In this document: piece by piece, positions 460 through 51,088 of the stretch
Layout: every line of letters begins with the position of its first letter
Numbering within the stretch: the stretch's first letter is position 1
Origin: Hyperoplus lanceolatus
Taxonomy: Eukaryota; Chordata; Actinopteri; Uranoscopiformes; Ammodytidae
DNA: 64,000 bases
NCBI GenBank assembly: GCA_026929865.2
Contig: CM049402.1
Coordinates: 26,295,001 to 26,359,000, forward strand
Reading direction: 5' to 3'
Translations under genes and position numbers: made by a program
Notes under the pieces: model-generated
What the model saw: only the letters and a program-made list of their open reading frames with translations
What the model was told of the DNA's origin: nothing
Database searches by the model: none

Positions 460-3400
460 ATCTCCCGCTGCTGGAAGGAACCAATCACAACTGAGTGGGG
501 TTTGCAGCAGGGGGGGAGGGGCGGAGAAGCTCAAAGCAGTGTGTAGAGAGAGACTGCTGTGCTCGCAAGGGTAAGAGGACGATTGTCCCGAAAATCTACA
601 TAGTTTTCTGTGATGTGATTCGTGTCAGGTTGCTCTATAGCAGTTTTTAACAATAAATTAAGACCAGAAAAGTAGTATAATAGGATCTCTTTAAATAAAA
701 ATATAATTGAGTGCTGGTAAAAACAAAAATATCGGAGAAATTATGAAGGAGATACTGTGGAGGAAGTACTATTAATGTACTTCTCTATCCTCCTTCCCAA
801 CACCCACCTTATTTAACAGGCATCTTCATCAAGGTCTGGGCCCATTAAATACATCATTGGAGCGGTGATTAAAAATGAAACCGACTTAAATGTGGTAATC
901 AATCATTTAATAGGTTAACAGGCTTAAAATATCGTTGTGCTTTTTCAACCTGAGCCCACTGGGAGAAAAAAGAGAGTGAGAGAAGGGGGAGAGATACCTG
1001 GAAATCATCTGTGACATTTTTATGCCAAGACAAAATGTGATATTATTCCTATGGAGCAGTCTCCCGGGGTGCAGCTAGTGTGACTGAGTGGTGTTTCGGA
1101 TTAAATACTGTTTATTATGTAGAGTCTACCTGAAGTGGGAAAAGTGAAACTGACCGGGTATACATGTGAAATGCAAGAGATACATTCCACTAATTGCCCA
1201 TAACTGGAGCAATTACTGTGCAGCTACATGGAACCAATGCCATTTGAGCTTTAGAATGCACAGTGTGGGGCTTCATTTGAATGGGTACATGAATGCTTCT
1301 CATTGACAAGATGCTGTGCTCTGGATTCACACAGCGGTTAAGTGTGTGAATGCTGTACAGCAGAGAATGCTCTCCCACTGGTGTCACTCCACGCTTTCTT
1401 TCTACCCAAAAGGATATAAGATTACCAGCAAATATCATTCTTTTTTTCCTGTTTGGATCGGTAGATGAATATGACTCAAAATTTCAAAAGTGTTGCCTTT
1501 TACCATCTGTGCTAATTGCCACAGATGGATGATACAGACTGGCACTTCTCAAGTGTGATGTAACTTTGAATGTTATGTTGGTCTAAAGCTGTGAGAAAAA
1601 CAAACCAATTCCCGACTAGAATTTCTGAACATTAAATAGGTTTAGAAGGTGTTTAAAAACTTTACAAAATAAAGACGCCATATGTACTGTATATAACTTT
1701 GCATATTAAAAATGTAAATGGTGTATAGATGGATGCCGGAATATGTATGTTGACTATATGCATCATACCTTAGCAGAACCTAGCCATAATATGTCCTTAA
1801 TGCCTGATCTGGATGAATATGACCTCTACTGTGAGAATTCTTCAAGAAATATGTGATATACTTTTCACATATTCCAGGTACCCCTTCACTGTCCAATCAA
1901 ATAAAGACAAACATACTAACATAGCCAAATAGCCTGGCCATGCTAACAGGTATGTGGCACTGTGCTTTTCTACAGTGACAATGTCAGCTAACTGTTTATG
2001 CAAGTGACTTAGTGATGTTAAGTGGGTGTTTTTTTCCATGTGTACACACCCAATTACGCACTAAGCATACTTAATGTTGCTATTAAGACAAAAGAGATTT
2101 ATATTAGTATCCATATTTCAGTTATATTTTGACCTAACATTGTCAAGCTCATGAAGGCAGATCCACCTGAATATCATTATGATTCATTCTCCATAGACCA
2201 ATCCATTCAATATCTTTGTGGCTATTTCGAAAGATCAGCAGTAAAGATGCTTTAACAATGTGGATCAGCCACCCTCACACATGACCATGTGGGAGCAGCA
2301 GCACAATGCACCACAGTGTTATTCATTCATATCACATACATACATCCTCCCCAGTGATATCTCAGTCATTATTTCTGACCTTTGCTGCTGTTGATTGAGT
2401 TTATAGCACTCGCATGGAAACGGACTTCACAGGGTCCTTCTTCCCAATAAAACAAAGGAATAAAAACATCATATAGACATACACCTGCATTGTATTGTTA
2501 TTATTATAACTCCCCTACACCTATATTTTGAAATTAATGTTTTTACAGATTATACAACATACTAGTAACGTCAATTTCCATCTTCTCATGATACTCAATG
2601 GAAAAACTAGAAACTAAGTGGTTTTCCCAAAAAATTTAAAAATATATTGTGTTAATGTGTTGCCCTTCTAAATATATGATACACTAAACAAGAAACACCT
2701 AGTTGGTATTAATAATACAAGTAAGACACCTGATCTTTTCTCTGGACACTCCTTTCACCAGGCAATTTTGACACAGTTGTTACTGGCTACATAAATTACT
2801 TCTTATAAATGAATCGAACACACTCTGGTCCCCAATTCAATTTAACTGACCTTCAATGAAAAAAGACTGAATAATTAAATGAGAGAACTGCAATGTTTTA
2901 TTTTGGACAACACTCCTGATACATATCCCCAACCTTAGACTGAATGCAGGCTGTGGACAGAAAACAGAGCAGAAAATCCTAATTTAAAATCCAGCAAAAC
3001 AACACACAGAGGAGAAAATGTGACCAGTATTTGTTCAGAGTGTGATTGTAAAGCCAGATACACACATGCTATGTAAGACTTTGCATTAGTTGTGTACAAT
3101 ACATGACATTTCTGAGGAGAGGCCTTTGTTGATCAAGTCAAATGAGGTCAGGTAGAGAAAACAAGCCTGGCTATGCTCACTATTTATATAGACTGAACCC
3201 CACAGTCCGTTGGTGCATTGGAATACTTAAGTGTGGCAATCAGCACTGTCATACTGTTGTGAGAGACAACACAGCATATTTTTTTGTATAGTGTTATGTT
3301 TATTTTTGTCTAGAACGTTCTGGGAATCAAAATGGATAGGAAAAATAGGAGGAACATACATTTGCTGGGGACCATGAATATCAACATAACACAAATGCAA

Positions 3401-35496: not shown

Positions 35497-36539
35497 AAGC
35501 TAGGTCATAACTTCTGTTGCCCCCATGCGTAATCATGGGTAATTCCAACAATACTGTCAGCGCATCTACTCATGTGGTAAGTATTCAGTGATCGTGCATG
35601 GATTGTATACCTTCAGCTGTACGTCCAGATTTTTCATGAGCAACTTTGAGCTCCTGCACCAGTGTCGGGGGGGTGACACCAGTTTGTAAATGCTGCCGTA
35701 CTGAGAAATGCAGAGAGAGTTTTGAAGAGCTGACAATTGTATCAACTTTTATGGCAATGACTTGAATGTAACAACATTCCTTTGTATGACAAAGTTATGC
35801 ACTAGAATGTTACTATAAGCAGCATCATGAATCCAGATCATGCGTGTTTCATTACTTCCTAACTTCCTAACCATGTTCGCTCTGGCTGTCGTTTCTGACA
35901 GTATGCTCTACGACAAGAGGGTGCACTCTGAGCTTCTGTGCACGATCAACCAAGCCTTTCTTTCGCCCTTCCTCTATTTCTTCCTCCCTCACTCTGTCTT
36001 TCCCTGGGCTCTGTTTCTCTTTCTTCTATCCTCTCCTCTCCTCTCCTCTTCGCCCGCCCACCTCATATCTCTTTCCCTTCATCTTTCTTACTCTCTTTCC
36101 CTCTCTTGTTCCCTTTCTTTCCGGGGCCTCCTCCATATTCCTAACTCGCTCCCTCTTCTTTTTATCATGCATCAACTGCTGCGTCTGATGAGCACATCAG
36201 TCAAGGCCTGGCTAATGAAGTCCCTCTCCTTCGCCATTAGAGTGAAATAACTAATCTCTCTCTCTCTCTCTTTCTCTCTATCTTCTAACCAAACCAAACA
36301 ACTTTCTCTTCCTCCTCCCCACTTACCTCCTCTCAAATCCATCTCTTCCGCTCCTTCCTTCTTGTCTCTTTTCGTCCTCCCCAGCTTCTCTCAGGCAAAT
36401 AGGGAGCCAAATAAAGAGCAAGGCTGGCTGAGGTTTAAAAGAGCAAAATGAAAGGGAACATTTACCAACATAAGAACATACATGGGTCAAGACCTTGAAA
36501 ACCAAATCAATAATTCTCAAATGTAGGAATGGGTGAATT
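35497..36539. other. Noncoding, pyrimidine-rich in part
   Basis: 35950-36150 and 36250-36370 are C/T-rich on the plus strand (CTCTC runs), which produces spurious L/S/P-rich frames. No gene seen. Confidence 0.5.
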
Positions 36540-36795
36540 AAAAGGTGGGGGAAAATGACTTTGGGATAGATACATACTGTTTTATATTGTACAAAAAAGT
36601 CCTTTGCACTACTTAGTATTTAGAATGTATATAATGTACATATTGTTTATGGTATGTTCATCTTATTCTGCTCTATATTTGTTATTGTTCCTATTGCACT
36701 ATTGGGCTAGTGATGAATGCTATTTCGATTCTGATGTATGTCTTGCATATATCAGAACTCACAATAACAAACTTTGACTTGACTTTGAAGACTTA
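36540..36795 (+). mobile_element. LINE 3-prime UTR-like fragment
   Basis: The phrases CCTTTGCACTACTTAGTATT, TTGCACTATTGGGCTAG, ATGCTATTTCG and a closing CAAACTTTGACTTGACTTTGA with a TTGAC-type tandem tail match the layout of a fish LINE 3-prime UTR and tail. No coding part remains. The family is not assigned. Confidence 0.4.
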
Positions 36796-36807
36796 CATGT
36801 TTACAAA

Positions 36808-36866
36808 TGATATATATATATAGATATATATCTATATATCTATATATATATCTATATATCTACATA

Positions 36867-36923
<57 letters not shown>

Positions 36924-36944
36924 GATATATATATATATATATAT
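36808..36944. repeat. (AT)n/(ATCT)n microsatellite
   Basis: TA repeats with ATCTA variants, ending at the start of the homopolymer tract. Confidence 0.95.
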
Positions 36945-36950
36945 TACTAC

Positions 36951-37232
36951 TATACCCCTCCCTCCCCTCCCTCCCCCTCTTCCCCCCCCCCGTCTTCCTT
37001 TTTTTTTCCCCCCCTCCCCCCCCCCCCTTTTCAACTAAATTTAATAATAATTAGGGTTTTTTTCTCCCCCGCGCCCGTGGCGCGTGGGGGGGCGTGGGGG
37101 GGGGTGAGAGAGTGGGGGGGGGGGGGGGATATATATAAAACTACCCCCCCCCCCCCCCCCCCACCCCCCCCCCCCCCCCCTCCCCCTCCTCCCCCCCCCC
37201 CCCCCCCTTCAATAGAAGGGGAGGGGGGGGGG
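36951..37232. repeat. C/G homopolymer tract at left element junction
   Basis: Long C runs, CCT-rich and G-rich segments and poly-G directly abut the element's left end at 37233. The proline and glycine frames here are translations of homopolymers. Such a pile-up of C then G runs is unusual for fish DNA and may be a sequencing or assembly error that hides the true left junction. Confidence 0.8.
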
Positions 37233-37264
37233 GTGCGTCTTAAAGAATGTTTTTTTTATCTGTT

Positions 37265-37860
37265 TTTATTACTTCCTTAACACCCCAATTCAAAGGATAC
37301 CTTAGGAGGGCACATTGATTAGTTTGCAAAACAAAACACCTCTTCAAGGGGGGTAACTCAGGATTTTATATCCCATTATGTTATACATGTGGGGTACCTT
37401 AGGAGGTCACAATGATTAGTTTGCTAAACAAAACACCTCTTCAAGGGGGGATGACTGAGGATTTTATATCCCATTATGTTATACAGGTGGGGGTCATATA
37501 GAATCACGGGAATGATTTTTAAATCTTTTAAATAGTCTGATATACAATACTTCAAGGGGTTACCTCAGGATACCACACCTACATGCTAACTTTGTGTTCA
37601 CGGATACTTATATGATACATTTAATCAGGGGCATTCTTATCGACTCGTGGGAATGAGGGATTTTTTTATTTTACAAAGTCTTCTAAACAAACCATCCCTC
37701 TTCAAGGTGGTAACTCAGGATTTCACACCCTTATGTTATATAGAAACTTTAGGTGAATTTTTTTTAATCAGGGGTCAGGGACTAAACAACTCACACATCA
37801 AAGGGGTAACTCTGGATTTCACATCCATGCTAGCTTTCTGTTCACAGATGCTTTAGGTGT
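37265..37860. repeat. Five subterminal iterons, left arm
   Basis: The phrase TTCAAGG-GGTAACTCAGGATT followed by T(A/C)(T/A)(A/C)(T/C)CC recurs at about 37343, 37440, 37551, 37702 and 37797, spaced roughly 95-150 bp. Copies 1 and 2 share flanks (GATTAGTTTGC-AAACAAAACACCTC). They lie within about 600 bp of the element end, where viruses with protein-primed linear genomes keep replication or packaging signals. The function here is inference. The same array is mirrored at 48160-48756. Confidence 0.7.
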
Positions 37861-38116
37861 TAGGGTGTATTTCTATTCCACTATCATTCTGCGTTAACAC
37901 TAACAACTGTTGATGGGGAATAAAATAATTCCTCTGTATATAAGTGTTAAACTGTATGCATATGGTCACAAAGAGGTAAATAGAAGCCTCTATAGCATAT
38001 GAATTTATAAAATACTCCCCTGACCGATTTCAAATCTGACGTATTTTAAAATGTAAGCATCCACTTATTAACAAACACCTCATATGCTATAAACCAAGTC
38101 AAAAACCCCTGTTGCC

Positions 38117-38124
38117 TATATAAA
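38117..38124 (+). promoter_or_regulatory. TATA box for the spliced gene, left arm
   Basis: TATATAAA followed by ATAATATAAAAAGGGG lies about 200 bp upstream of the first ATG (38323) in an otherwise mixed-composition stretch. It is mirrored at 47897-47904. Confidence 0.5.
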
Positions 38125-38322
38125 ATAATATAAAAAGGGGATAGGGCTTGTCTATTAAGTTATGTAAGAATGGATATCAGGAGGTCACACATACATGTTA
38201 GTTTTTCTGCTCAATGGAGGGGATGGCCTTTAAGAGTCCAAGGGGTTTGACAGACTCAACCAGGTCAGGCCACAGTTGATGAACGATACAACTCTGAGGA
38301 CGTCTTATTTTCAGCCTACAAG

Positions 38323-39575
38323 ATGCCCCTAATTCATGGTGAGTTGATATGATGTTTATATTTGTTATAAGTGTTTCTACTTCTCTGTTCTTTCCTGCAA
38401 CTTATTTCTCCTAAAATGTGCTAGTTTTTCTACACAGCTCAGACCAAATGGACTACATCTACACTGAATGTTAATTCCCTCGGAGAGACAGGGAGAGCTA
38501 ACATTACAGGTATCTAAATGGTTCATTATTGTTAATGCGTATATATTTAAGATGTTTCTTCAATGTATTTCTTAAAATTAAATGCACAATCATAATTTGG
38601 TATAGATGCTGTATGTCTGTTTGACGAGCCGTCGCGAGCCATATGTGTAGAACATCGTCCGATATCACCCGCTAAAACTCAACAGCCAAGAAGGGTTCTT
38701 GGGCTAGCATTGCGGCCTGCAAGTAAGAGAAACTACAAATTACAAACAATATTACATTCTTAAGTGCTGATGTAATATTTATACTGATCTAGGATATGTT
38801 TGTTTTGTGTTTTTTAATTTTTTAAACCAGATGGTTCTAACGATTACTACAAGCCGATAGCGTTTAAACCTAGCATCCATAAAAAATTGCTCAGATCTGG
38901 AGAGGGGGCCGTTAATTCACCCGCCAAATCCAGGCCAAGAGGTAAATACAACTCCGTGACAACATTAAGTATGTATCACAAAATATATATATTAGTGCAT
39001 TCTTAAATGTTACAGCAATATATCAATATGCTATTTGTGTTTTTATTTTATTTTTTAAAACAGATACGTCTAACAGCAGAGACAAGGTACCAGCATCTGG
39101 CCCTAGCACATCTAAAACATTGAGCTACGTGGGAGCAGCCATTTCACAGCCCCGGGGAGGAATCTACGGTGTCGATGAGGAGGTCAACTTATGGAACGAT
39201 GAACATCTAAAGCGATGGGATGCGAAAAGATTCAAGGGACATCAGGATACATCAACATCATATAGTAAGACAAAAATCACTCAAAAACCAGAGGTGAAAA
39301 AAACAAACATAACTCAAAAATCAGTGGTCAAAAATAAGGAAAATGATGATGGTGGACTTTTAAGAAGAGTTAAAGCTCAGCTACATATTTCTAGATTCAC
39401 AAAGGCCTTAATTGTAAAGTACAATTTGAGACAGGCTAAGGTTCAATATGGTCAAGCTAGGAAGGCAGAGGAAACTCTAAAAGAGGTTGGTCAACTTAAA
39501 AGGATGTTAGCACAACATAATACAGAAAACAGAGAAATCAAAACAATGTTAGCAAAATTACTCTCAAGAAAGTAA
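38323..39575 (+). CDS. Five-exon spliced gene, basic protein with coiled-coil-like C-terminus
   Basis: Predicted exons are 38323-38338, 38438-38509, 38606-38722, 38831-38941 and 39064-39575, about 275 codons. Each junction has GT/AG ends (donors GTGAGT, GTATCT, GTAAGA, GTAAAT; acceptors CACAG, TATAG, CCAG, ACAG). Introns are only 96-122 bp and all are phase 1. The internal exons are 72, 117 and 111 bases, so each can be skipped without a frameshift. The last exon encodes a lysine-rich middle and an E/K/Q-rich C-terminus (about residues 205-275) with heptad-like leucines, probably a coiled coil. No known domain was recognised. It lies directly upstream of polB, the place where a terminal protein or DNA-binding protein would be useful, but that role is a guess. 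A near-identical copy lies in the right arm. Exons are predicted by eye. Confidence 0.72.
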
Positions 39576-39589
39576 TATTAGCTTATTTA

Positions 39590-39603
39590 GGGGGGGGGGG
39601 GGG
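39590..39603. repeat. G homopolymer between spliced gene and polB
   Basis: A run of about 14 G sits between the stop of the spliced gene and the polB start. In the right arm the same run is 6 long (46435-46440, as C). It is the main length difference between the arms. Confidence 0.8.
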
Positions 39604-39644
39604 CCGTGGTCTGATATCGTCATTATATTCTAGTGGTCTTAACG

Positions 39645-42600
39645 ATGTCTCGTAAGAGCTCATCCAAATCAAAGCATGGTAGACGTTGTTCATTAGTATG
39701 CAGTGAAGATGACGAAAAGGGGTCAGTTCTACCTGAAATTTGTGCGGCTACAGACAGTATGTATGATTATGGAGAATTCATTGATGAGACTGATCTGTCG
39801 GAAATATACAGGGTAACTGATGAAATGATGGACTACGGTGATTGTAACGATGATCGTGATATTTCAGATATACACAGGCTCACGGATCAATTGCATGATG
39901 TTGTTGGTGACAGTGAGGATTGGTCGGAGGGGTTTCAAAACCTTTCAGAGGATAGAGAACAATGGAATGAATGTGCTCCTGAATCATACAGATACTCAGA
40001 TCAATGTGATGCAGATTGGATAGACGATTGGAGCCGTGAAGATAGCCTAGAAGTATTGCATGATATGGGTATACTCAAAGCCTCTGAACAAATAAATGTA
40101 GAATCGTCAGACTCTAGACAAAATACACAGGAATCTGCACCGGGAAACATAGCATCACACCAGGAATGTAATATCATTTGTCAAAATGTTAACAATCAAT
40201 TTAGCCCTGAATTGAATGAGCGCATACAGAGAGCGGGGGGAGCGCAACAATTTAAGATAACTGAACGGCGCAAATTCAATGGTGTTGAAATTCGGCAGCG
40301 TATTGACTTAAGAAATATTAGCATGGAGAATTTGGGGTCTGCATTAACTACTCTCAGAAGTCAGTTAACTGAGATTGTCAGTTTTTCAACTAGTGTAACT
40401 TCCCCGGATGGGGTTCTAAACGTTGTTTTAAGAGGGCCATCAATGTCCAGTGATGTCTGTGCGTTATTAAACACAAACAATAACGATAATGCGGAAGCCT
40501 TTATGGCACAAATTGAGCAAGTCATGCAGAGTAACAGTAAAATGATTTCGGACGATTCCCTTGAATTTATTGTAACTGGAGCTTTAAACAGACGGGGAGG
40601 GGCTAGGCGCAAACTAGGAAGTGTTCCTTATGACCATATCATAAGTAAAAAAGCGGCGTGCCTCTACAACCCTGCAAACAGTGAAAACATGTTGTGCTTT
40701 TCAATATGCCTAGCAAAGCATAAGCATCCTGACTTGCCCGAGAGCCAAATTGAAAAAGAGGGCCAACAGATACATGAGCGTACAGGATTGTCTCTCGATC
40801 ACAAAGTTTCATTCACAGATGTATCTAAATTTGAGCAACTCTTGAATGTTAAAATCATTGTATTTTATCATAATGAAGGGACTAAGCAACTGGACATGTT
40901 TCAGAACAGTGAACAACCTCATGCCGAGACAGTATGGATGTATCTGCACGACGATCATTATTATATGATAAAGAATAAAACAGGTTTCTTTGGGAGCTCG
41001 TATATGTGTGAGTTCTGTTACAGAGGCTACAGTAGTAAAGCTTTCCATGAATGTAAATATTCATGTAACGTATGTCTGTCTGGAGAATGCTACGAAAGAC
41101 GGGGTCCCCGCACTATAAAGTGTCCAGATTGTCACCGTTTATGCAAGTCCGACTTCTGTTTAAACAAACACAAGCAAGTAGTTACAGCCACAAAACACTG
41201 TAAAGAATATACGCCATGCAATCGCACAAAATACTGCAACGACTGTGGTCGGCTGTATAGTGTGAGTAAAAATCCAAAATCTGGGGGGCACAAGTGTTTG
41301 AAAGGCAACTGTGAGCATTGCGGCGAAATGCTTATTTCGGACGTTGAGCATAAATGTTTCATACAGCCTCAAAAATCAACCAACCCCCAAAATAAATATG
41401 TCTTTTATGATTTTGAAACAAAGACAAATGATAATAAACATGAGGCAAATTTCGTATGCGCTATTGACTTCGAAAACAAAAAGTGGTACGCCTCTGGACC
41501 TTCGTGTGTCGATCTCTTTGTCAAAAAATACAGAAAGCCAAAATACAAGAACTATACATTCATAGCTCACAATGCTTCAGGATTTGACAATTATATCATG
41601 TTGGACTACTTCACTAAACAGGGTATTACACCACGATTAACTATGCGAGGTAGCAAAGTTCTGCTAATGTATGACACCACATACAAACAAAGGTGGCTGG
41701 ACTCTTACAGTTTCATGCCTATGAGACTAGCAAGCACTCCTGCGGCATTAGGATTCGAAGATGCCAAAAAGGGGTATTTCCCACACATGTTCAACATTGA
41801 TGAGAATAATGACTATAAAGGATCCTACCCCGAGCCTCATTTTTATGGCTATGATAATATGTCAGAAAAAGATAAACAGGATTTCATGCAGTGGTATAGT
41901 GAAGCGTCGAAGGGGGAGTTTGACTTCCAGTTTCAGCTTCGATCATATGGAATCAATGATGTTGTGGTCTTACGAAAAGCTTGCATGACCTACCGCGAGG
42001 CATTCATAGAGTGTACAGATTTAGACCCTTTTGAATATACAACACTTGCATCTTGTTGTATGGCTGTGTTCAAAACCAAGTTTTTGCCTCCCAACACATT
42101 GGCTTTGACTCATGAGAATGCTTATACTACGCAGCATAAGGCCTATTCTAATGTATCAATACAGTGGCTAGAATATGAGTCTTTCATACACAATGTAGAG
42201 ATTAAACACGCTCTCAATCACGGTGAAGAACGGTTTGGGCCCTTTCATGTTGATGGGTTTTGTGAGCAAGACCGTAAGGCTTACGAGTTTGCAGGGTGCT
42301 TTTGGCACGGTTGCCCGAAGTGTTACAACCCAGGACATAAAAATTCTGTAAACAATATAGGATTTGGAGTTCTCTACAGGCAGTTTGTGGAAAAAATAAG
42401 ATGTCTAAGACTTACCCATAAGCTCAATGTTAAGGTGGTGTGGGAGTGTGAGTGGGGCTTAGCCAAAAAAAATGACATGAGATTGCAGGAATTTTTGAAA
42501 AGTTACGATGCCCCTGAACGTCTCAACCCACGACAAGCCCTGTTTGGAGGTCGAACCAACGCATACAAACTCCACCACAAAGTAACCGGGGGTGAAAAAA

Positions 42601-43877
42601 TACTCTACTATGACTTTACCTCTCTATACCCCACGGTACAGGCGCACAAAGACTATCCGATTGGACACCCTGAAATAATCATTAGTGATTTTGAGCCCCT
42701 AGAAAATTACTTTGGTCTGATTAAATGTACAGTGCTGCCTCCACGAGGTTTGTACCATCCTGTGCTTCCATACAGGTGTCATGATAGGCTAATGTTTCCA
42801 TTGTGTCGAACATGTACAGAGAATAGAAATCAGGACAGTAACTGTATGCACTCAGATATTGAACGTTCTCTGTCTGGAACATGGGTCAGTTTCGAGTTGC
42901 AAAAAGCAATAGAAAAGGGTTATATTGTAACCAATATTGACGAAGTGTGGCATTTCGCAGAAAAAAGCGATAACCTCTTCAAAGAATATGTAAAGACATT
43001 CTTAAAGCGAAAACAGGAGGCTTCGGGTTACCCGAGTTTTGCAAAAGATGATCAAACAAAAGCGAAATACATCCAGGATTACTATGAAAAGGAGGGTATT
43101 CGTTTGAATCAGGAAAAAATTTCAGTCAACAAGGCTGTGCGTAGCATTAACAAGCTATTGCTGAATTCGCTGTGGGGGCGTTTTTCAATGCGTGAAAATC
43201 AGGCTTCATGCGAGCTAGTGACAGATCCCGAGCGTTTTGCCCGATACATGTTTAGCGATCAGTATGATGTCAGACAGTTTACATTTGTAAATGATCAAGT
43301 GGCTCTAGTTCAATGGAGACATGCAAATGCCCAGGCATCTAAGACCAAAAATATTAACATATTTATTGGTGCAATGACAACAGCATATGCACGGATGATG
43401 CTGTATGATCTTATGGACAAGCTTGGGGAAAGATGTATTTATTCTGATACAGACAGTGTTGTTTTTGTCTCAAGAGAAGGTGATTGGACACCTGAGACAG
43501 GACCCTTTTTAGGGGACCTAACAGACGAGATTAATGGAGACACCGGAGAGAGCGATTACATTGTGGAGTTTGTGTCAGGAGGGCCAAAGTGCTATGCTTA
43601 CCGGACACTGAGTAACAAGACACAGATAAAATGTAAAGGTATCACTCTGAATGCTCATAATGCATCCATTGTCACCCATGAGTCCTTAGTAGATCTAGTT
43701 GACGAGTTTGTGAGACATGGCGATGCACCGCAAAATCTAATGACGAGATCAGACACTATAGTGAGAAATAAGAAGAAGTTCGAACTTAAAAACAAAACAG
43801 TCAGAAAAAAATTTCAAGTGGTTTACACTAAACGAAGGGTCTTTGAGGATTTTACCACATTACCTTATGGTTATTGA
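39645..43877 (+). CDS. polB: Family B DNA polymerase, protein-primed (Maverick type)
   Basis: ATG at 39645 (MSRKSSSK) gives 1410 aa. A GTG 12 bases upstream is in frame, but ATG is the better start. Order: acidic leader (about 1-200); conserved Maverick N-terminal region (about 200-450); a Cys/His-rich zinc-binding block (about 455-572); a 3-5 exonuclease with D589/E591 (DFE), N643-F647-D648 and Y768-x3-D772; an inserted domain with GCFWHGC (884-890) and VWECEW (932-937); polymerase motif A (D990, SLYP 993-996), motif B (N1169 to G1178, NSLWG) and motif C (YSDTDS, D1268/D1270). All catalytic residues are present and no frame break is seen, so it looks functional. It would replicate the linear genome from a protein primer. 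The first 419 codons are repeated in the right arm. Confidence 0.93.
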   Translation: MSRKSSSKSKHGRRCSLVCSEDDEKGSVLPEICAATDSMYDYGEFIDETDLSEIYRVTDEMMDYGDCNDDRDISDIHRLTDQLHDVVGDSEDWSEGFQNLSEDREQWNECAPESYRYSDQCDADWIDDWSREDSLEVLHDMGILKASEQINVESSDSRQNTQESAPGNIASHQECNIICQNVNNQFSPELNERIQRAGGAQQFKITERRKFNGVEIRQRIDLRNISMENLGSALTTLRSQLTEIVSFSTSVTSPDGVLNVVLRGPSMSSDVCALLNTNNNDNAEAFMAQIEQVMQSNSKMISDDSLEFIVTGALNRRGGARRKLGSVPYDHIISKKAACLYNPANSENMLCFSICLAKHKHPDLPESQIEKEGQQIHERTGLSLDHKVSFTDVSKFEQLLNVKIIVFYHNEGTKQLDMFQNSEQPHAETVWMYLHDDHYYMIKNKTGFFGSSYMCEFCYRGYSSKAFHECKYSCNVCLSGECYERRGPRTIKCPDCHRLCKSDFCLNKHKQVVTATKHCKEYTPCNRTKYCNDCGRLYSVSKNPKSGGHKCLKGNCEHCGEMLISDVEHKCFIQPQKSTNPQNKYVFYDFETKTNDNKHEANFVCAIDFENKKWYASGPSCVDLFVKKYRKPKYKNYTFIAHNASGFDNYIMLDYFTKQGITPRLTMRGSKVLLMYDTTYKQRWLDSYSFMPMRLASTPAALGFEDAKKGYFPHMFNIDENNDYKGSYPEPHFYGYDNMSEKDKQDFMQWYSEASKGEFDFQFQLRSYGINDVVVLRKACMTYREAFIECTDLDPFEYTTLASCCMAVFKTKFLPPNTLALTHENAYTTQHKAYSNVSIQWLEYESFIHNVEIKHALNHGEERFGPFHVDGFCEQDRKAYEFAGCFWHGCPKCYNPGHKNSVNNIGFGVLYRQFVEKIRCLRLTHKLNVKVVWECEWGLAKKNDMRLQEFLKSYDAPERLNPRQALFGGRTNAYKLHHKVTGGEKILYYDFTSLYPTVQAHKDYPIGHPEIIISDFEPLENYFGLIKCTVLPPRGLYHPVLPYRCHDRLMFPLCRTCTENRNQDSNCMHSDIERSLSGTWVSFELQKAIEKGYIVTNIDEVWHFAEKSDNLFKEYVKTFLKRKQEASGYPSFAKDDQTKAKYIQDYYEKEGIRLNQEKISVNKAVRSINKLLLNSLWGRFSMRENQASCELVTDPERFARYMFSDQYDVRQFTFVNDQVALVQWRHANAQASKTKNINIFIGAMTTAYARMMLYDLMDKLGERCIYSDTDSVVFVSREGDWTPETGPFLGDLTDEINGDTGESDYIVEFVSGGPKCYAYRTLSNKTQIKCKGITLNAHNASIVTHESLVDLVDEFVRHGDAPQNLMTRSDTIVRNKKKFELKNKTVRKKFQVVYTKRRVFEDFTTLPYGY

Positions 43878-43908
43878 AAAAAAAAAAAAAAAAAAAGAAG
43901 GAAAAAAT
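43878..43908 (+). promoter_or_regulatory. Intergenic A-tract between polB and ATPase
   Basis: Only 31 bases separate the polB stop from the ATPase ATG, and 20 of them are an unbroken A run starting right after TTATTG. The run could affect transcription or translation of the next gene or be a slippage site. No other signal is visible. Confidence 0.5.
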
Positions 43909-44577
43909 ATGTCTATCAGAGAATTGGGATCATTTGACTGTAGACTCCAACACCCCTTTAGTCTTATTGTTTCAGGACCTTCAAATAGTGGTAAAACGTA
44001 TTTTGTCAAATTGTTATTAGAACATGCAGAGAGATTGATTTCTAAAAACATTGACAATATTGTATATATTTATTCATGCTGGCAACCATTGTATGATGAT
44101 TTACTCAAAATTCGAAATGTTAATTTTGTTGAAGGTTTGCCTCTATCTCTATGTGATGATTCTCTGCTTCCTGTACATAAAAACAATCTGTTGATTATTG
44201 ATGACTTAATGAATGATGCAAGTAAAAATATTGAGGTTCAGAATGTTTTTACAAAATATGTACATCATAGGAACTTGAGTTGCTTGTATTTGGTGCAGAA
44301 TTTGTTCATGCAGGGTAAATCCAGTAGAACAATCAGTCTGAACACTAATTATCTAATTTTGTTTAAAAACCCTCGAGATAAATATCAGGTCATGTTGATG
44401 GGTAGACAAATGTTTCCTGGCAAGAGTAAATTTTTTATGGAATGTTTTGATGATGCAACAAGTGTTCCTTATGGGTATCTAATGATTGATTATAAAGCCA
44501 AGACACCTGATAATCTCCGTCTCAGAACGGATCTGCTGTCAAACTATCCTGTTGTGTATGTTCCGAAAAGCAAATAA
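43909..44577 (+). CDS. Packaging-type ATPase (FtsK/HerA-like, Maverick)
   Basis: 222 aa from ATG 43909 (MSIRELGSF). An upstream in-frame start overlapping polB would add a lysine-run leader and is unlikely. Walker A GPSNSGKT is at residues 23-30 and Walker B LLIIDDLM at 94-101. A later N-L-F/sensor-like region (LVQNLFMQGKSSRTISLN) matches the A32-like genome-packaging ATPases of Mavericks, adintoviruses and related viruses. In those viruses it pumps DNA into preformed capsids. Here no capsid gene remains in the element, so the protein has no obvious job unless a helper virus supplies particles. The length is normal and the frame is intact. Confidence 0.88.
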   Translation: MSIRELGSFDCRLQHPFSLIVSGPSNSGKTYFVKLLLEHAERLISKNIDNIVYIYSCWQPLYDDLLKIRNVNFVEGLPLSLCDDSLLPVHKNNLLIIDDLMNDASKNIEVQNVFTKYVHHRNLSCLYLVQNLFMQGKSSRTISLNTNYLILFKNPRDKYQVMLMGRQMFPGKSKFFMECFDDATSVPYGYLMIDYKAKTPDNLRLRTDLLSNYPVVYVPKSK

Positions 44578-44581
44578 AAAC

Positions 44582-44917
44582 ATGTCTGAACGTGTACGAA
44601 GAAACTTGTCTTTATTAAAAAAACTCCATGACGCTTCTCCTTCTAAGAGGAGGGATCTTATCAAACATGCAACTGCAGACTTGTTATTAGCAATATGTGA
44701 AGTAGCATTCAACGTTTTAAAAGGCAAAGTGCCTTTAACAACATCACAGTATCAAAAACTGAAGAAAAAGAAGGCGGGGATTATTCTATTGGCTGATAAA
44801 AAGGTGTGTGTATCCAGAAAAAAAAAGAGAATGATGAATCAATCTGGAGGATTCCTTCTACCTCTGCTGAGTATAGCGGTGCCGTTTATCTCAAGTCTAA
44901 TCACATCGAGAAGATAA
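44582..44917 (+). CDS. Small basic protein with hydrophobic C-terminal segment (Maverick core-like)
   Basis: 111 aa from ATG 44582, four bases after the ATPase stop (TAA AAAC ATG). It has a basic N-terminal half with KRRDLIKHATADLLLA, two lysine/arginine clusters (KLKKKKAG; SRKKKRMM) and a closing glycine-rich hydrophobic stretch (SGGFLLPLLSIAVPFIS). Proteins with this layout recur in Mavericks and adintoviruses and have been compared with adenoviral small core protein X. The basic parts suggest DNA binding and the tail suggests membrane or capsid contact. The exact role is not established. The frame is intact. Confidence 0.7.
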   Translation: MSERVRRNLSLLKKLHDASPSKRRDLIKHATADLLLAICEVAFNVLKGKVPLTTSQYQKLKKKKAGIILLADKKVCVSRKKKRMMNQSGGFLLPLLSIAVPFISSLITSRR

Positions 44918-44926
44918 CAGACTAAT

Positions 44927-45220
44927 ATGGAGTTTGCTCAAAAAATGATTCTTGTACCGCAAGAGCAACTTGATGTTTTAAGAAGACCGTCTGAACACAA
45001 ATCTATACGTGAATCTGTGGAAAATGAGCTTGATCGGTCCATTAAAGATATATTGGATCAGAAAACTGAAGACATACACGAAAAAGCCAATAAATACTCA
45101 AAAGCATTACAGAGATTTCTCACGATGAAACATGTCCAGTTGCTTAGTCCCTTCATTATGATAAAATACAATGATTTTAACATTCAAGAGTTGCTCAAAT
45201 TTAGATACATCTGTGAATGA
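44927..45220 (+). pseudogene. Truncated small Maverick protein fused to antisense polB
   Basis: ATG 44927 opens MEFAQKMILVPQEQLD, a start seen in a family of small helical Maverick proteins of unknown function. The genuine part is about 66 codons and E/K/D-rich, probably helical. At codon 67 (45126) the sequence switches to the inverted arm, so the remaining 31 codons are antisense polB with no meaning. In complete elements more genes, including the capsid module, would be expected after this one. The fusion pinpoints the rearrangement. Confidence 0.7.
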
Positions 45221-46384
45221 AACTTTGTGATCGAGAGACAATCCTGTACGCTCATGTATCTGTTGGCCCTCTTTTTCAATTTGGCTCTCGGGCAAGTCAG
45301 GATGCTTATGCTTTGCTAGGCATATTGAAAAGCACAACATGTTTTCACTGTTTGCAGGGTTGTAGAGGCACGCCGCTTTTTTACTTATGATATGGTCATA
45401 AGGAACACTTCCTAGTTTGCGCCTAGCCCCTCCCCGTCTGTTTAAAGCTCCAGTTACAATAAATTCAAGGGAATCGTCCGAAATCATTTTACTGTTACTC
45501 TGCATGACTTGCTCAATTTGTGCCATAAAGGCTTCCGCATTATCGTTATTGTTTGTGTTTAATAACGCACAGACATCACTGGACATTGATGGCCCTCTTA
45601 AAACAACGTTTAGAACCCCATCCGGGGAAGTTACACTAGTTGAAAAACTGACAATCTCAGTTAACTGACTTCTGAGAGTAGTTAATGCAGACCCCAAATT
45701 CTCCATGCTAATATTTCTTAAGTCAATACGCTGCCGAATTTCAACACCATTGAATTTGCGCCGTTCAGTTATCTTAAATTGTTGCGCTCCCCCCGCTCTC
45801 TGTATGCGCTCATTCAATTCAGGGCTAAATTGATTGTTAACATTTTGACAAATGATATTACATTCCTGGTGTGATGCTATGTTTCCCGGTGCAGATTCCT
45901 GTGTATTTTGTCTAGAGTCTGACGATTCTACATTTATTTGTTCAGAGGCTTTGAGTATACCCATATCATGCAATACTTCTAGGCTATCTTCACGGCTCCA
46001 ATCGTCTATCCAATCTGCATCACATTGATCTGAGTATCTGTATGATTCAGGAGCACATTCATTCCATTGTTCTCTATCCTCTGAAAGGTTTTGAAACCCC
46101 TCCGACCAATCCTCACTGTCACCAACAACATCATGCAATTGATCCGTGAGCCTGTGTATATCTGAAATATCACGATCATCGTTACAATCACCGTAGTCCA
46201 TCATTTCATCAGTTACCCTGTATATTTCCGACAGATCAGTCTCATCAATGAATTCTCCATAATCATACATACTGTCTGTAGCCGCACAAATTTCAGGTAG
46301 AACTGACCCCTTTTCGTCATCTTCACTGCATACTAATGAACAACGTCTACCATGCTTTGATTTGGATGAGCTCTTACGAGACAT
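45107..46384 (-). pseudogene. Truncated polB copy in right arm (N-terminal 419 codons)
   Basis: A minus-strand frame from ATG 46384, identical at protein level to residues 1-419 of the complete polymerase. It then runs six codons (HREKSL) into the unique centre before a stop. It has the acidic leader and N-terminal Maverick region but none of the zinc block, exonuclease or polymerase motifs. If expressed it would give a 425 aa protein that could compete for partners of the full enzyme, which is speculation. There are no frame breaks before the junction. Confidence 0.88.
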
Positions 46385-46445
46385 CGTTAAGACCACTAGA
46401 ATATAATGACGATATCAGACCACGGCCCCCCTAAATAAGCTAATA

Positions 46446-47698
46446 TTACTTTCTTGAGAGTAATTTTGCTAACATTGTTTTGATTTCTCTGTTTTCTGTA
46501 TTATGTTGTGCTAACATCCTTTTAAGTTGACCAACCTCTTTTAGAGTTTCCTCTGCCTTCCTAGCTTGACCATATTGAACCTTAGCCTGTCTCAAATTGT
46601 ACTTTACAATTAAGGCCTTTGTGAATCTAGAAATATGTAGCTGAGCTTTAACTCTTCTTAAAAGTCCACCATCATCATTTTCCTTATTTTTGACCACTGA
46701 TTTTTGAGTTATGTTTGTTTTTTTCACCTCTGGTTTTTGAGTGATTTTTGTCTTACTATATGATGTTGATGTATCCTGATGTCCCCTGAATCTTTTCGCA
46801 TCCCATCGCTTTAGATGTTCATCGTTCCATAAGTTGACCTCCTCATCGACACCGTAGATTCCTCCCCGGGGCTGTGAAATGGCTGCTCCCACGTAGCTCA
46901 ATGTTTTAGATGTGCTAGGGCCAGATGCTGGTACCTTGTCTCTGCTGTTAGACGTATCTGTTTTAAAAAATAAAATAAAAACACAAATAGCATATTGATA
47001 TATTGCTGTAACATTTAAGAATGCACTAATATATATATTTTGTGATACATACTTAATGTTGTCACGGAGTTGTATTTACCTCTTGGCCTGGATTTGGCGG
47101 GTGAATTAACGGCCCCCTCTCCAGATCTGAGCAATTTTTTATGGATGCTAGGTTTAAACGCTATCGGCTTGTAGTAATCGTTAGAACCATCTGGTTTAAA
47201 AAATTAAAAAACACAAAACAAACATATCCTAGATCAGTATAAATATTACATCAGCACTTAAGAATGTAATATTGTTTGTAATTTGTAGTTTCTCTTACTT
47301 GCAGGCCGCAATGCTAGCCCAAGAACCCTTCTTGGCTGTTGAGTTTTAGCGGGTGATATCGGACGATGTTCTACACATATGGCTCGCGACGGCTCGTCAA
47401 ACAGACATACAGCATCTATACCAAATTATGATTGTGCATTTAATTTTAAGAAATACATTGAAGAAACATCTTAAATATATACGCATTAACAATAATGAAC
47501 CATTTAGATACCTGTAATGTTAGCTCTCCCTGTCTCTCCGAGGGAATTAACATTCAGTGTAGATGTAGTCCATTTGGTCTGAGCTGTGTAGAAAAACTAG
47601 CACATTTTAGGAGAAATAAGTTGCAGGAAAGAACAGAGAAGTAGAAACACTTATAACAAATATAAACATCATATCAACTCACCATGAATTAGGGGCAT
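46446..47698 (-). CDS. Second copy of the five-exon spliced gene
   Basis: Predicted exons on the minus strand are 47683-47698, 47512-47583, 47299-47415, 47080-47190 and 46446-46957. All splice sites are kept. One amino-acid difference from the left copy is visible (K to R near the start of the last exon's lysine-rich part). Because both copies are intact, the gene is present in double dose and would be transcribed toward the element centre from both ends. No known domain. Confidence 0.68.
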
Positions 47699-47896
47699 CT
47701 TGTAGGCTGAAAATAAGACGTCCTCAGAGTTGTATCGTTCATCAACTGTGGCCTGACCTGGTTGAGTCTGTCAAACCCCTTGGACTCTTAAAGGCCATCC
47801 CCTCCATTGAGCAGAAAAACTAACATGTATGTGTGACCTCCTGATATCCATTCTTACATAACTTAATAGACAAGCCCTATCCCCTTTTTATATTAT

Positions 47897-47904
47897 TTTA
47901 TATA
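47897..47904 (-). promoter_or_regulatory. TATA box, right arm copy
   Basis: Mirror of the TATATAAA at 38117-38124, about 200 bp upstream of the minus-strand ATG at 47698. Confidence 0.45.
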
Positions 47905-48159
47905 GGCAACAGGGGTTTTTGACTTGGTTTATAGCATATGAGGTGTTTGTTAATAAGTGGATGCTTACATTTTAAAATACGTCAGATTTGAAATCGGTCA
48001 GGGGAGTATTTTATAAATTCATATGCTATAGAGGCTTCTATTTACCTCTTTGTGACCATATGCATACAGTTTAACACTTATATACAGAGGAATTATTTTA
48101 TTCCCCATCAACAGTTGTTAGTGTTAACGCAGAATGATAGTGGAATAGAAATACACCCT

Positions 48160-48756
48160 AACACCTAAAGCATCTGTGAACAGAAAGCTAGCATGGATGT
48201 GAAATCCAGAGTTACCCCTTTGATGTGTGAGTTGTTTAGTCCCTGACCCCTGATTAAAAGAAATTCACCTAAAGTTTCTATATAACATAAGGGTGTGAAA
48301 TCCTGAGTTACCACCTTGAAGAGGGATGGTTTGTTTAGAAGACTTTGTAAAATAAAAAAATCCCTCATTCCCACGAGTCGATAAGAATGCCCCTGATTAA
48401 ATGTATCATATAAGTATCCGTGAACACAAAGTTAGCATGTAGGTGTGGTATCCTGAGGTAACCCCTTGAAGTATTGTATATCAGACTATTTAAAAGATTT
48501 AAAAATCATTCCCGTGATTCTATATGACCCCCACCTGTATAACATAATGGGATATAAAATCCTCAGTCATCCCCCCTTGAAGAGGTGTTTTGTTTAGCAA
48601 ACTAATCATTGTGACCTCCTAAGGTACCCCACATGTATAACATAATGGGATATAAAATCCTGAGTTACCCCCCTTGAAGAGGTGTTTTGTTTTGCAAACT
48701 AATCAATGTGCCCTCCTAAGGTATCCTTTGAATTGGGGTGTTAAGGAAGTAATAAA
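48160..48756. repeat. Five subterminal iterons, right arm
   Basis: Mirror image of the array at 37265-37860, same spacing and consensus. A T-to-C difference interrupts the T run within it (near 48259). Confidence 0.68.
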
Positions 48757-48778
48757 AACAGATAAAAAAAACATTCTT

Positions 48779-48876
48779 TAAGACGCACATTTTTACCTCA
48801 CGCACGCACCTTGCTTGCTCACATGTACGCTCATGTACGCATGCATGCGCGTGCGTGAGATAAAATGCGCGTCTTA
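48779..48876. repeat. Imperfect hairpin at right element boundary
   Basis: 48779-48807 (TAAGACGCACAT...CTCACGCACGC) and 48849-48876 are inverted repeats with about 24 of 28 bases matching. The 41-base loop is rich in ACATGTACG/GCATGC words. The first arm overlaps the last 10 bases of the element. Whether it belongs to the element end or to the host target cannot be told from one locus. Confidence 0.6.
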
Positions 48877-48879
48877 TTT

Positions 48880-51088
48880 ACTACTAACCTTTGTTCATCA
48901 ATCCTACTCTGCCTCTGTCTGCTCTTGGGTCCAGTATCAAACCGTAACATTATCAGCCCTTCAAGGTAAAACTATTCATTCAGATGTCTGTTTGGCCTTC
49001 AGTACATTCCAGAATACTTCTGCTGAATGATACATCCCTCCATAATGAATAAAAATGTGTAATTACAATGTTAGTGCTCTTAGCTTTATTCAGTAATATA
49101 TTAAACATGATCACATTCATCTCATTTATTAGATGACTGTGGGACTTAAGTAGAGATCACGCTCATTTAATTTAGTAAAAAATCACATTTGTATGATTGT
49201 CACAGTTCATTACACAAATACAGGCACTATGCATGGCCAAGACTAAACGTTGTGTACTTTAGGACTGGAATGGTTTCCATTGTTTGGACTCTTCTTCTTT
49301 GTTCAAATTAACACTTTGAACCTCAGACTTTTAGATGAGCTAATTTCTTTAATCTTTACTTGGCTTTTGGCACAGTTACTGTATGTCTTACTTAACTGTA
49401 AACTAGGCATGTATGTTGTTGGGATGTCCAAGTACCTGTGTATAATACATGAAAAGATATTTGTATTTGTTCAGTGTCTCTTGGACAAACACTGCCAAAT
49501 CATGCTGGATTAAATATGCATAATCACACCAGATGTAGAGTGAAGTGAAAACAAACAGGTTAATGAATGGATATGCATACTGATTGGAACAGAATGCAGC
49601 CAAGCTTTTCAGCCCAGTCACTGACAGGGAGGTGGACATGAGCCGAGGCTTTTCAACTAACTACTTGTTCAGCAGATAAAACTGCTCGCCTGTAGCAGCC
49701 CAGTGGTATTAATTCAATCTTGCGTGAAGACTGCCTTGATCTGCTCTCCCAACACACCACCAGCCTGTACCCTCCCAGAAACTGAAAACCCGCCCCCCAC
49801 CCTCCCCAATCCCTGCTGACATTTTTTACCCCACCCTTAATTCACATTTATGTAAAGTGGGCCCGCCGAGTTAACGCCAGGATAACTTCACTGAGTGCTA
49901 CGGTTATGCTAATGTGCCATCTGAAAACCTGGTGGCCTAATTTAATTTTGTTCAGCCCCCCCCCCCCATCCCCAGGATGCTCACACAACTGGTAGACTCC
50001 ACTTAATGAATCTGTTTAAAATCGAATAGAGACTTTTAATAGCTCACAGAGCCTTCCGTCCCCATCTACTGCCATTAGCAGTCGGCGTCACATCCACATC
50101 AGGACTTATTTGGGAAAATGACAAGTTGGCTTTGAACAACACGACATGGCTGGAGTCTGACTGTGAATTAATTGTGTAGTATTGCCTCCTCCTTAATACA
50201 TACGCAGTGTGTGTGGTGCTCTAAATGTGCAAGCTAAAGTGTATCGTCTGTGTTACTGATGTCAGTATCACCTTTTGACTGCATTGCCATCTACAATCTA
50301 TTTAAGAAAAAAACATTAAAGTATTGCACTGGGCTTCTTCATCCCTCATTACACTGTTTGCTGTATTCCTCAGTGGACTAAACACTACGATATAGATCAG
50401 AAAGTTACACAGTTGTTTTTATGTTGTACTGCAGTGATGTGTCCCCTAAATGAGACATCATAACTATTAAACAACAATCCTATTGGACAGGTGAAGACAA
50501 ACCACTGCGTTGACAAAGCAAGGCACATCTGGGTTTTCCTCACATCTGGTTTGTTTTTTGTGCAAATATCAACAGACATTCTCTGAAATGGTTTACTAGT
50601 TAACAGTATCCTATGGACAGTGGCCAATTTACTTTGGACACATATACCAGTCAGATCCTATTGCCGCTACCCTTGAAGTTCACCTTATTAAGCACAACTA
50701 ATGAGGTGCTGACTGCAACCTGACAATGACTCATGAATGACACAAGGGATGAAACCCCCATCTTATAAGTGTAAGTATGATTGCCCTAGTTGTCTTTGTG
50801 TTCAATTAAGCGCACTTGGCGCAGGATGCCTTAGGGCCTCAATATGCTTCAAACAAAATGCATCGGACAGCAAAGGCTCCTCCCCAACACATTTCAGGTG
50901 GTGTCAGGATGCAGGTGCATTTGAAGGCATGTTTTGTAAACTTTCAAAGAAGTCCATCTGATAAGCATTCCCACTCTAAACACTAATTGGCCTGTGTTAT
51001 GTAGGTTGCAAAATAGGTGTCTATTTTAAGCTCTGTTGCTTTATTCTTCATAATGTGACCAAAGCGTAAAAGTGACCAAGCATAATGT
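48880..51088. other. Single-copy noncoding DNA right of the element
   Basis: No gene seen. There is a C run at 49956-49965. 49850-50170 has even composition and TAATTTAATTTTG/TTAATGAATCTG phrases, a candidate conserved noncoding element. Confidence 0.4.

Follow-up and report, generated by a model that had tools for sequence, protein, structure and literature searches.

Mavericks are regarded as viruses in the guise of transposons. Here we describe a Maverick copy in the genome of Hyperoplus lanceolatus (assembly GCA_026929865.2) that carries one of its ends twice, as two long inverted arms. The window, that is, the whole stretch of DNA analysed, comprises 64,000 nt of contig CM049402.1 (positions 26,295,001-26,359,000, forward strand). 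Inside it, 37233-39595 matches 46426-48788 and 39598-40903 matches 45126-46431, both in inverted orientation, with 4,222 nt in between. This alignment confirmed the two arms of about 3.67 kb around a 4.2-kb centre that the initial annotation had described. The features of the locus are as follows.

~36940..37232, no strand: low-complexity poly-C/poly-G/TA tract in place of the outer left terminus, probably poor assembly
37233..40903, + strand: left arm, readable part, with subterminal repeats, spliced gene and polB codons 1-419 (self-alignment, open reading frames (ORFs))
37295..37492, + strand: two subterminal direct repeats of ~97 bp, with mirror copies at 48529-48726
38323..39571, + strand: presumed spliced gene with ~100-bp introns, belonging to no known family; exons delimited by eye
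39645..43877, + strand: family B DNA polymerase (PolB), 1,410 amino acids; PF03175 (DNA_pol_B_2), E 3.4e-48
40904..45125, + strand: unique centre, with the polB remainder, the ATPase, the 119-residue gene and the start of the truncated gene (self-alignment, ORFs)
43867..44577, + strand: candidate A32-like packaging ATPase, 236 amino acids; Pox_A32 E 1e-4, 22.3 bits (cut-off, 22.8); Walker A GPSNSGKT
44558..44917, + strand: ORF of 119 amino acids, placed like "pm" in vertebrate Mavericks (assigned solely by its place; gene order from the available part of PMC8097293)
44927..45220, + strand: truncated gene, 97 amino acids, running into the arm (249 in C20, an ordinary copy listed below); "pz" by position only
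45107..46384, - strand: duplicated N-terminal part of polB, an ORF of 425 amino acids with a new 3' end
45126..45127, no strand: mirror junction; 2 bp common to both joined sequences
45126..48788, - strand: right arm, an inverted copy of the left (self-alignment)
46450..47698, - strand: mirror copy of the spliced gene; coordinates carried over from the arm match
48774..48885, - strand: right terminus, an (AGT)2 end with a strong terminal-repeat hairpin (copy comparison, DNA fold)
48886..48891, + strand: AACCTT, expected copy of the target-site duplication (TSD) at the right end, by its position after the terminus

Aligned end to end over 3,663 columns, the arms differ by two substitutions and one 8-bp poly-G indel, so that they are not exactly 100% identical; judging from the sequence, a chance origin of a 3.67-kb repeat at such identity is not possible. 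The two substitutions were used as probes, with the window's own loci (L003, L007 and L008) excluded from the comparison. The one at 46786 is private to the right arm, all other probe-matched places carrying the left-arm base, and the probe for the second matched in the window only. As to content, the first 419 codons of polB and the subterminal repeats lie in the arms as initially annotated, and the presumed spliced gene placed beside them rests on exon limits read by eye. The remainder of polB and the ATPase likewise lie in the centre, but only one of the "two small genes" assigned to it is complete (119 amino acids), the 97-residue ORF running into the arm. The right limit had to be moved outwards from 48788: comparison with other copies of the family places the true terminus at 48885, where the element starts AGTAGTAAATAA, and this adds ~97 bp of terminal repeat. 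In a DNA fold, the terminal 112 nt gave a long hairpin of -38.7 kcal/mol (z -9.5); 200 shuffled sequences included none of equal stability. The terminus is of the (AGT)2 type, as in vertebrate Mavericks. At the left, the outer ~97 bp are missing or garbled in the low-complexity tract, and AACCTT, searched for as the left copy of the TSD, was absent from 36000-37300.

The genes of the window copy are those of one Maverick end. The YxDTDS residues are present in the PolB ORF and are at least 90% invariant in an alignment of 17 sequences. With residues 620-1120 as query, identity ranged from 75 to 41% among the 120 PolB homologs listed of 1,531, and the named homologs among the matches listed were mostly from teleosts, plus other animals. 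For the ATPase ORF, the Walker A motif and the place after polB agree with a Maverick packaging ATPase, the Pox_A32 score falling just under the cut-off. The last-exon ORF of the spliced gene, taken from the ordinary copy C15, gave no Pfam match above the cut-off, and none of its 138 candidate homologs reached E 1e-3. A PDB sequence search had no match for the ATPase or PolB, and phage records had none for the left arm. Comparison of IMG/VR viral contigs with the PolB alignment gave 33 pattern matches, 0 of them confirmed, which leaves no free relatives for comparison. No ORF of the window copy encodes an rve integrase with chromodomain, and there is no adenain-like protease or capsid gene among its ORFs of at least 90 amino acids. 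On its sequence, then, we regard the window copy as a defective derivative of a vertebrate-type Maverick and not as a complete member.

A search of the genome with the window left end and the C15 right end revealed 18 loci of the family, a lower bound; 17 were read, C8:32.06 and C19 in part, and C13 was counted without reading. The count excludes a 31-bp match on C5, and an integrase fragment at C22:3.09 Mb (pieces 91% and 85% identical), with no element end found, was also left out. By form there were 2 ordinary elements, 4 left-left, 3 right-right, 3 left-right deletions, 1 complex locus and 5 without an assigned form.

C15:16217584-16233010 (L042, L043): ordinary element, left and right halves unlike
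C20 (L044, L045): ordinary element, left and right halves unlike
Window copy: left-left, arms 3.67 kb
C16:8435896-8444929 (L037): left-left, arms 2.68 kb
C1:30.7 Mb (L038): left-left, arms ~1.3 kb, the second seemingly of poor sequence quality
C8:32.06 Mb (L047): left-left, assigned from 978 bp of inverted arm
C1:8.88 Mb, 8877049-8885295 (L041): right-right, a single 8.25-kb palindrome with ~40 bp at the centre
C1:9.29 Mb (L039): right-right
C4:38.2 Mb (L040): right-right
C21, C11 and C4:11.57 Mb: left-right, middle lost
C22, ~7466.8-7475.3 kb (L050, L057): complex, the right terminal part exchanged for 412 bp plus the terminus of an inverted left end
C14, C7:0.24, C7:16.69, C19 and C13: no assigned form

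The mirror form is thus real, but it is not the single rebuilt element first proposed: there are 7 mirror forms, left-left and right-right, with separate junctions. In all 7 (C8:32 read in part) one end was retained twice, the opposite end was lost, and the junction lay at a chance position. The two ordinary copies are ~15 kb long, match the window as far as 45127 and diverge beyond. A complete relative with a matching left half and a different right half had been suggested as a test of the idea, and C15 is such an element, with a broken integrase (Chromo 3e-8), a protease-like and capsid-type ORFs. Its terminal inverted repeats (TIRs) measure ~180 bp and differ from each other by 3 substitutions in 178 columns.

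The right half of C15 and C20 holds integrase remains, an adenain-like protease and ORFs called capsid-type by position only. The protease match falls just below the cut-off in C15 (E 5.7e-4) and clears it in C20 (Peptidase_C5, E 5e-8); the capsid-type ORF of 433 amino acids in C20 had no Pfam match. PF03175 was found at 6 places, all in this family: 3 left-left copies, 2 ordinary ones, 1 old fragment and 0 right-right copies. The right-right copy C1:8.88 contains two head-to-head integrase genes, with an ORF of 358 amino acids (rve E 1.4e-11, Chromo 7e-8). In the integrase search, 114 of 351 candidates were scored, and 0 of these 114 matches lay inside a left-left copy. Among the matches scored, integrases at least 80% identical were open in C1:8.88 (twice, 358 amino acids), C4:38.2, C22:7.47 Mb and C21; at the same identity they were not open in C15 (broken), C1:9.29 (first 128 residues) and C22:3.09 Mb (fragments). 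The C20 matches were broken and lower-scoring, and the remaining listed matches were 23-47% identical. Traces of polB and integrase occurred together only in C15 and C20, among the matches listed. With no integrase match in left-left copies and no polymerase match in right-right ones, each form depends on the other enzyme from elsewhere.

The position of the junction differed in all 7 mirror copies. The bases shared by the joined sequences numbered 2 in the window copy, 3 in C1:30.7, 8 in C1:8.88 and 0 in C1:9.29; C16 and C8:32 shared 0, with ~2 nt and 1 nt extra, respectively, and C4:38.2 had ~50 nt of filler of other sequence. Since no junction is common to two copies, the mirror forms seem to have arisen one by one rather than by the spread of a lineage. 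Formation of the palindromes by homologous recombination between the subterminal repeats was ruled out, as the junctions map to other positions and have 0-8 bp in common. The junction of L041 and the deletion point of L048 break within ~10 bp of each other (L043 ~3381-3396), possibly a hot spot or chance.

Within several mirror copies the arms were nearly identical, although copies differ from one another. Arm-arm substitutions numbered 0 in 2,675 for C16 (with 6 one-base indels), 1 in 4,101 for C1:8.88 and 0 in 978 for C8:32; C1:9.29 had 0 in 1,456 in its outer stretch and 9 over the whole arm, the 8 displayed ones falling in one indel-shifted block. Between copies, C16 showed 0-5 differences in 1,265-1,466 bp, with two comparisons set aside (79 for C20, 35 for the second arm of C1:30.7, which is garbled), and over ~1,350-1,450 bp C1:8.88 showed 4-26 and C1:9.29 1-34.

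Next we looked at the flanks. Six of the fetched copies could be read at both termini, and all 6 were flanked by identical 6-mers: TATGTT in C16, CATGCA in C1:8.88, AAGGTT in C15, TATACT in C20, ATAGTT in C21 and CACACA, within a CA repeat, in C4:11.57. Assuming equal base frequencies, such a match has a chance of ~1 in 4,096 per copy. The left-left C16 and the right-right C1:8.88 are thus mirror copies with TSDs, in direct orientation and between unlike flanks, which argues against assembly error and nested insertion for these two, and supports an origin before integration. These TSDs fit an integrase acting on a ready-made palindrome, but they would also survive later conversion. That the mirror product became genomic, as initially stated, is borne out in these siblings; in the window copy the left TSD is garbled.

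These results point to the window copy being, probably, a left-left mirror-image defective Maverick genome integrated in the chromosome. We likewise favour, with fair confidence, the formation of the mirror genomes before integration, by snap-back or end-joining alike, the share of end-joining being included in this judgement. The Maverick would replicate outside the chromosome as linear DNA, probably with protein priming of its PolB. A strand or genome keeping one end would fold back, switch to the opposite strand or join at a chance site, and so regain the same end, giving L[1..x] plus inverted L[1..y], or the corresponding product of the right end. With the terminal repeat then present at both of its ends, such a product could be inserted by integrase with a 6-bp TSD; left-left products lack the integrase gene and would need the enzyme in trans.

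For the joining step itself, a snap-back or strand switch is the best fit, set beside end-joining of broken genomes without separation from it. The initial annotation had invoked strand switching or panhandle repair; a panhandle of the ~180-bp TIRs alone leaves the internal junctions, with their 0-8 bp, unexplained. In the alternative, two broken linear genomes in one cell would be joined, any ends being ligated so that left-left, right-right and left-right deletion forms would all result, and then integrated, which differs from snap-back only in the joining step. Homology of 0-3 bp at 5 of 7 mirror junctions (1-2 nt extra at two) and the ~50-nt filler at a sixth are in its favour, and nonhomologous end joining is the explanation favoured for the mix of symmetric, asymmetric and deleted genomes of adeno-associated virus (AAV) in the available part of PMC8235507. 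The left-left, right-right and left-right deletion forms stand at 4:3:3, not far from the 1:1:2 expected from random end-joining, and this ratio does not separate it from snap-back. However, C1:8.88, with its ~40-bp centre and 8 shared bp, looks like a fold-back, and the near identity of arms within a copy, though copies differ, would require both ends to come from one clonal pool. We hold end-joining to be possible, with low confidence. Several observations weigh against the favoured reading. The 0-8 bp of junction homology suits end-joining as well. Over 1,466 bp the left arm of the window copy is the same as in C15 and C8:32, which makes its identity a sign of recency only and not of origin from the same molecule. 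Both ends are readable in only 2 of the 7 mirror copies, the others being garbled, cut near the hairpin apex or partly read (C8:32.06), and the garbled left end of the window copy means that its own left TSD gives no check. The arms are not identical in C1:30.7 (80/1,264) and C4:38.2 (13/298), a mismatch that may be due to poorly sequenced or cut stretches. Lastly, the two TIRs of C20 are a poor match to each other, with 40 substitutions in 171 columns.

Conversion after insertion, in which an ordinary element breaks and an end is rebuilt from the other through the shared TIR and joined to the interior, would equally leave the TSD in place and produce identical arms. It would, however, need 7 of 18 loci to be converted soon after insertion (the arms of C16, C8:32 and C1:8.88 having 0-1 substitutions), little time having passed for a window left arm equal to C15 and C8:32, and each time up to ~7 kb would be replaced with one non-homologous junction; we consider it unlikely. 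An assembly artefact, through missed adapters or wrong joins between near-identical copies, is suggested by the garbled window left terminus, by the garbled or cut end of several copies and by the copies being nearly identical. Palindromes made at the level of reads would mirror the flanks, which differ, and C16 and C1:8.88 have their matching direct TSDs between unlike flanks, so that this explanation is very improbable. Hardly to be entertained is a Maverick merely with unusually long TIRs: those of intact vertebrate Mavericks measure 46-1,447 bp (PMC8097293, available part), but the ordinary C15 of the same family has ~180-bp TIRs, both ordinary copies have unlike halves, arm lengths vary by copy, and right-right forms exist.

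Other features of the family were noted. The outer TIR hairpin is lacking or garbled at one end only in L038, L039, L040, L050 and at the window left end, in some near the apex; the cause may be faulty sequencing or hairpin ends that have opened. In the outer stem of the TIR, the bases after AGTAGTAAATAA vary among left and right ends, GACG and TCGG being commonest. The left end of C20 (L044/L045) is 5.4% off C15 and the window, and its right end 0.35-0.83% off the compared copies (2.6% against the second C21 right end); C20 is probably a recombinant of two lineages. At C21:27418581-27429022 (L048/L049), a left end is followed by an internal deletion, a complete right end and, in tandem, another right half, with ATAGTT as the outermost TSD; the locus resembles a nested form or a concatemer after recombination. 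In the complex C22 locus, a second left end, cut inside the TIR hairpin, runs directly into the middle of the right half. The right accessory region of C15 holds an ORF of 144 amino acids (L043:5207-5641, - strand) with a weak Bcl-2 match below the cut-off (E 0.013), possibly a viral Bcl-2-like gene.

Adenoviruses have a protein-primed PolB and give symmetric defective or recombinant genomes with an inverted duplication of one end, which are not known to be integrated with a TSD. Our literature search gave nothing on these adenovirus genomes, and in the titles and abstract starts that it covered we found no report of palindromic or mirror-image Mavericks. AAV, a small parvovirus with a single-stranded genome, primes its replication from hairpins. 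Its snapback genomes (SBGs; 5'-SBG and 3'-SBG) are left-only or right-only, self-complementary, and symmetric or asymmetric with an unpaired centre, and they occur with middle-deletion mutants, according to the available part of PMC8235507. A regulatory role has been proposed for them. The likeness lies in left-only and right-only mirror genomes alongside deletion forms; those of AAV are packaged molecules, whereas the copies described here are integrated in chromosomes, two with TSDs. In the poxvirus MVA-CR19, duplication of one end onto the other gave an inverted terminal repeat of 27 kb (PMC11680203, available part). There too one end was lost and the other, in inverted copy, took its place, leaving long mirrored ends, but in a free virus and not in an integrated element. 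As for vertebrate Mavericks, the available part of PMC8097293 describes two modules, usually convergent, (AGT)2 or (AG)3 ends with one further type, and 6-bp TSDs, and its abstract states that particles have not been observed. Our family is like them in its pPolB-type polymerase and probable ATPase at one end, the integrase, protease and capsid-type ORFs opposite, the (AGT)2 terminus, the 6-bp TSD and the ~15-kb ordinary copies; unlike them, the window copy has 3.67-kb arms that include part of polB, and its second module is gone. The mirror copies are a known kind of virus-like element, probably altered by a known kind of replication accident.

The vertebrate survey gathered loci with integrase and pPolB matches 4-40 kb apart (PMC8097293, as far as its available part goes), and left-left and right-right forms would, by our inference, escape it; a survey that needs integrase and polB together would catch few of these loci. 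One could go further and see more than debris in the two forms, one serving replication (polB, ATPase) and the other integration, with the family persisting partly as complementing half-genomes that are mobilised in trans and may also regulate the Maverick. That no junction is common to two mirror copies, so that none is seen spreading as such, makes this quite doubtful. Alone, the window copy would be a curiosity; its weight comes from belonging to a series of left-left and right-right copies, of which two have TSDs. If the reading is true, these copies are chromosomal fossils of faulty linear-genome replication, left-ended and right-ended, and evidence for an integrase acting in trans on left-left copies. 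Their presence in chromosomes suggests that the Maverick replicates like a virus before inserting.

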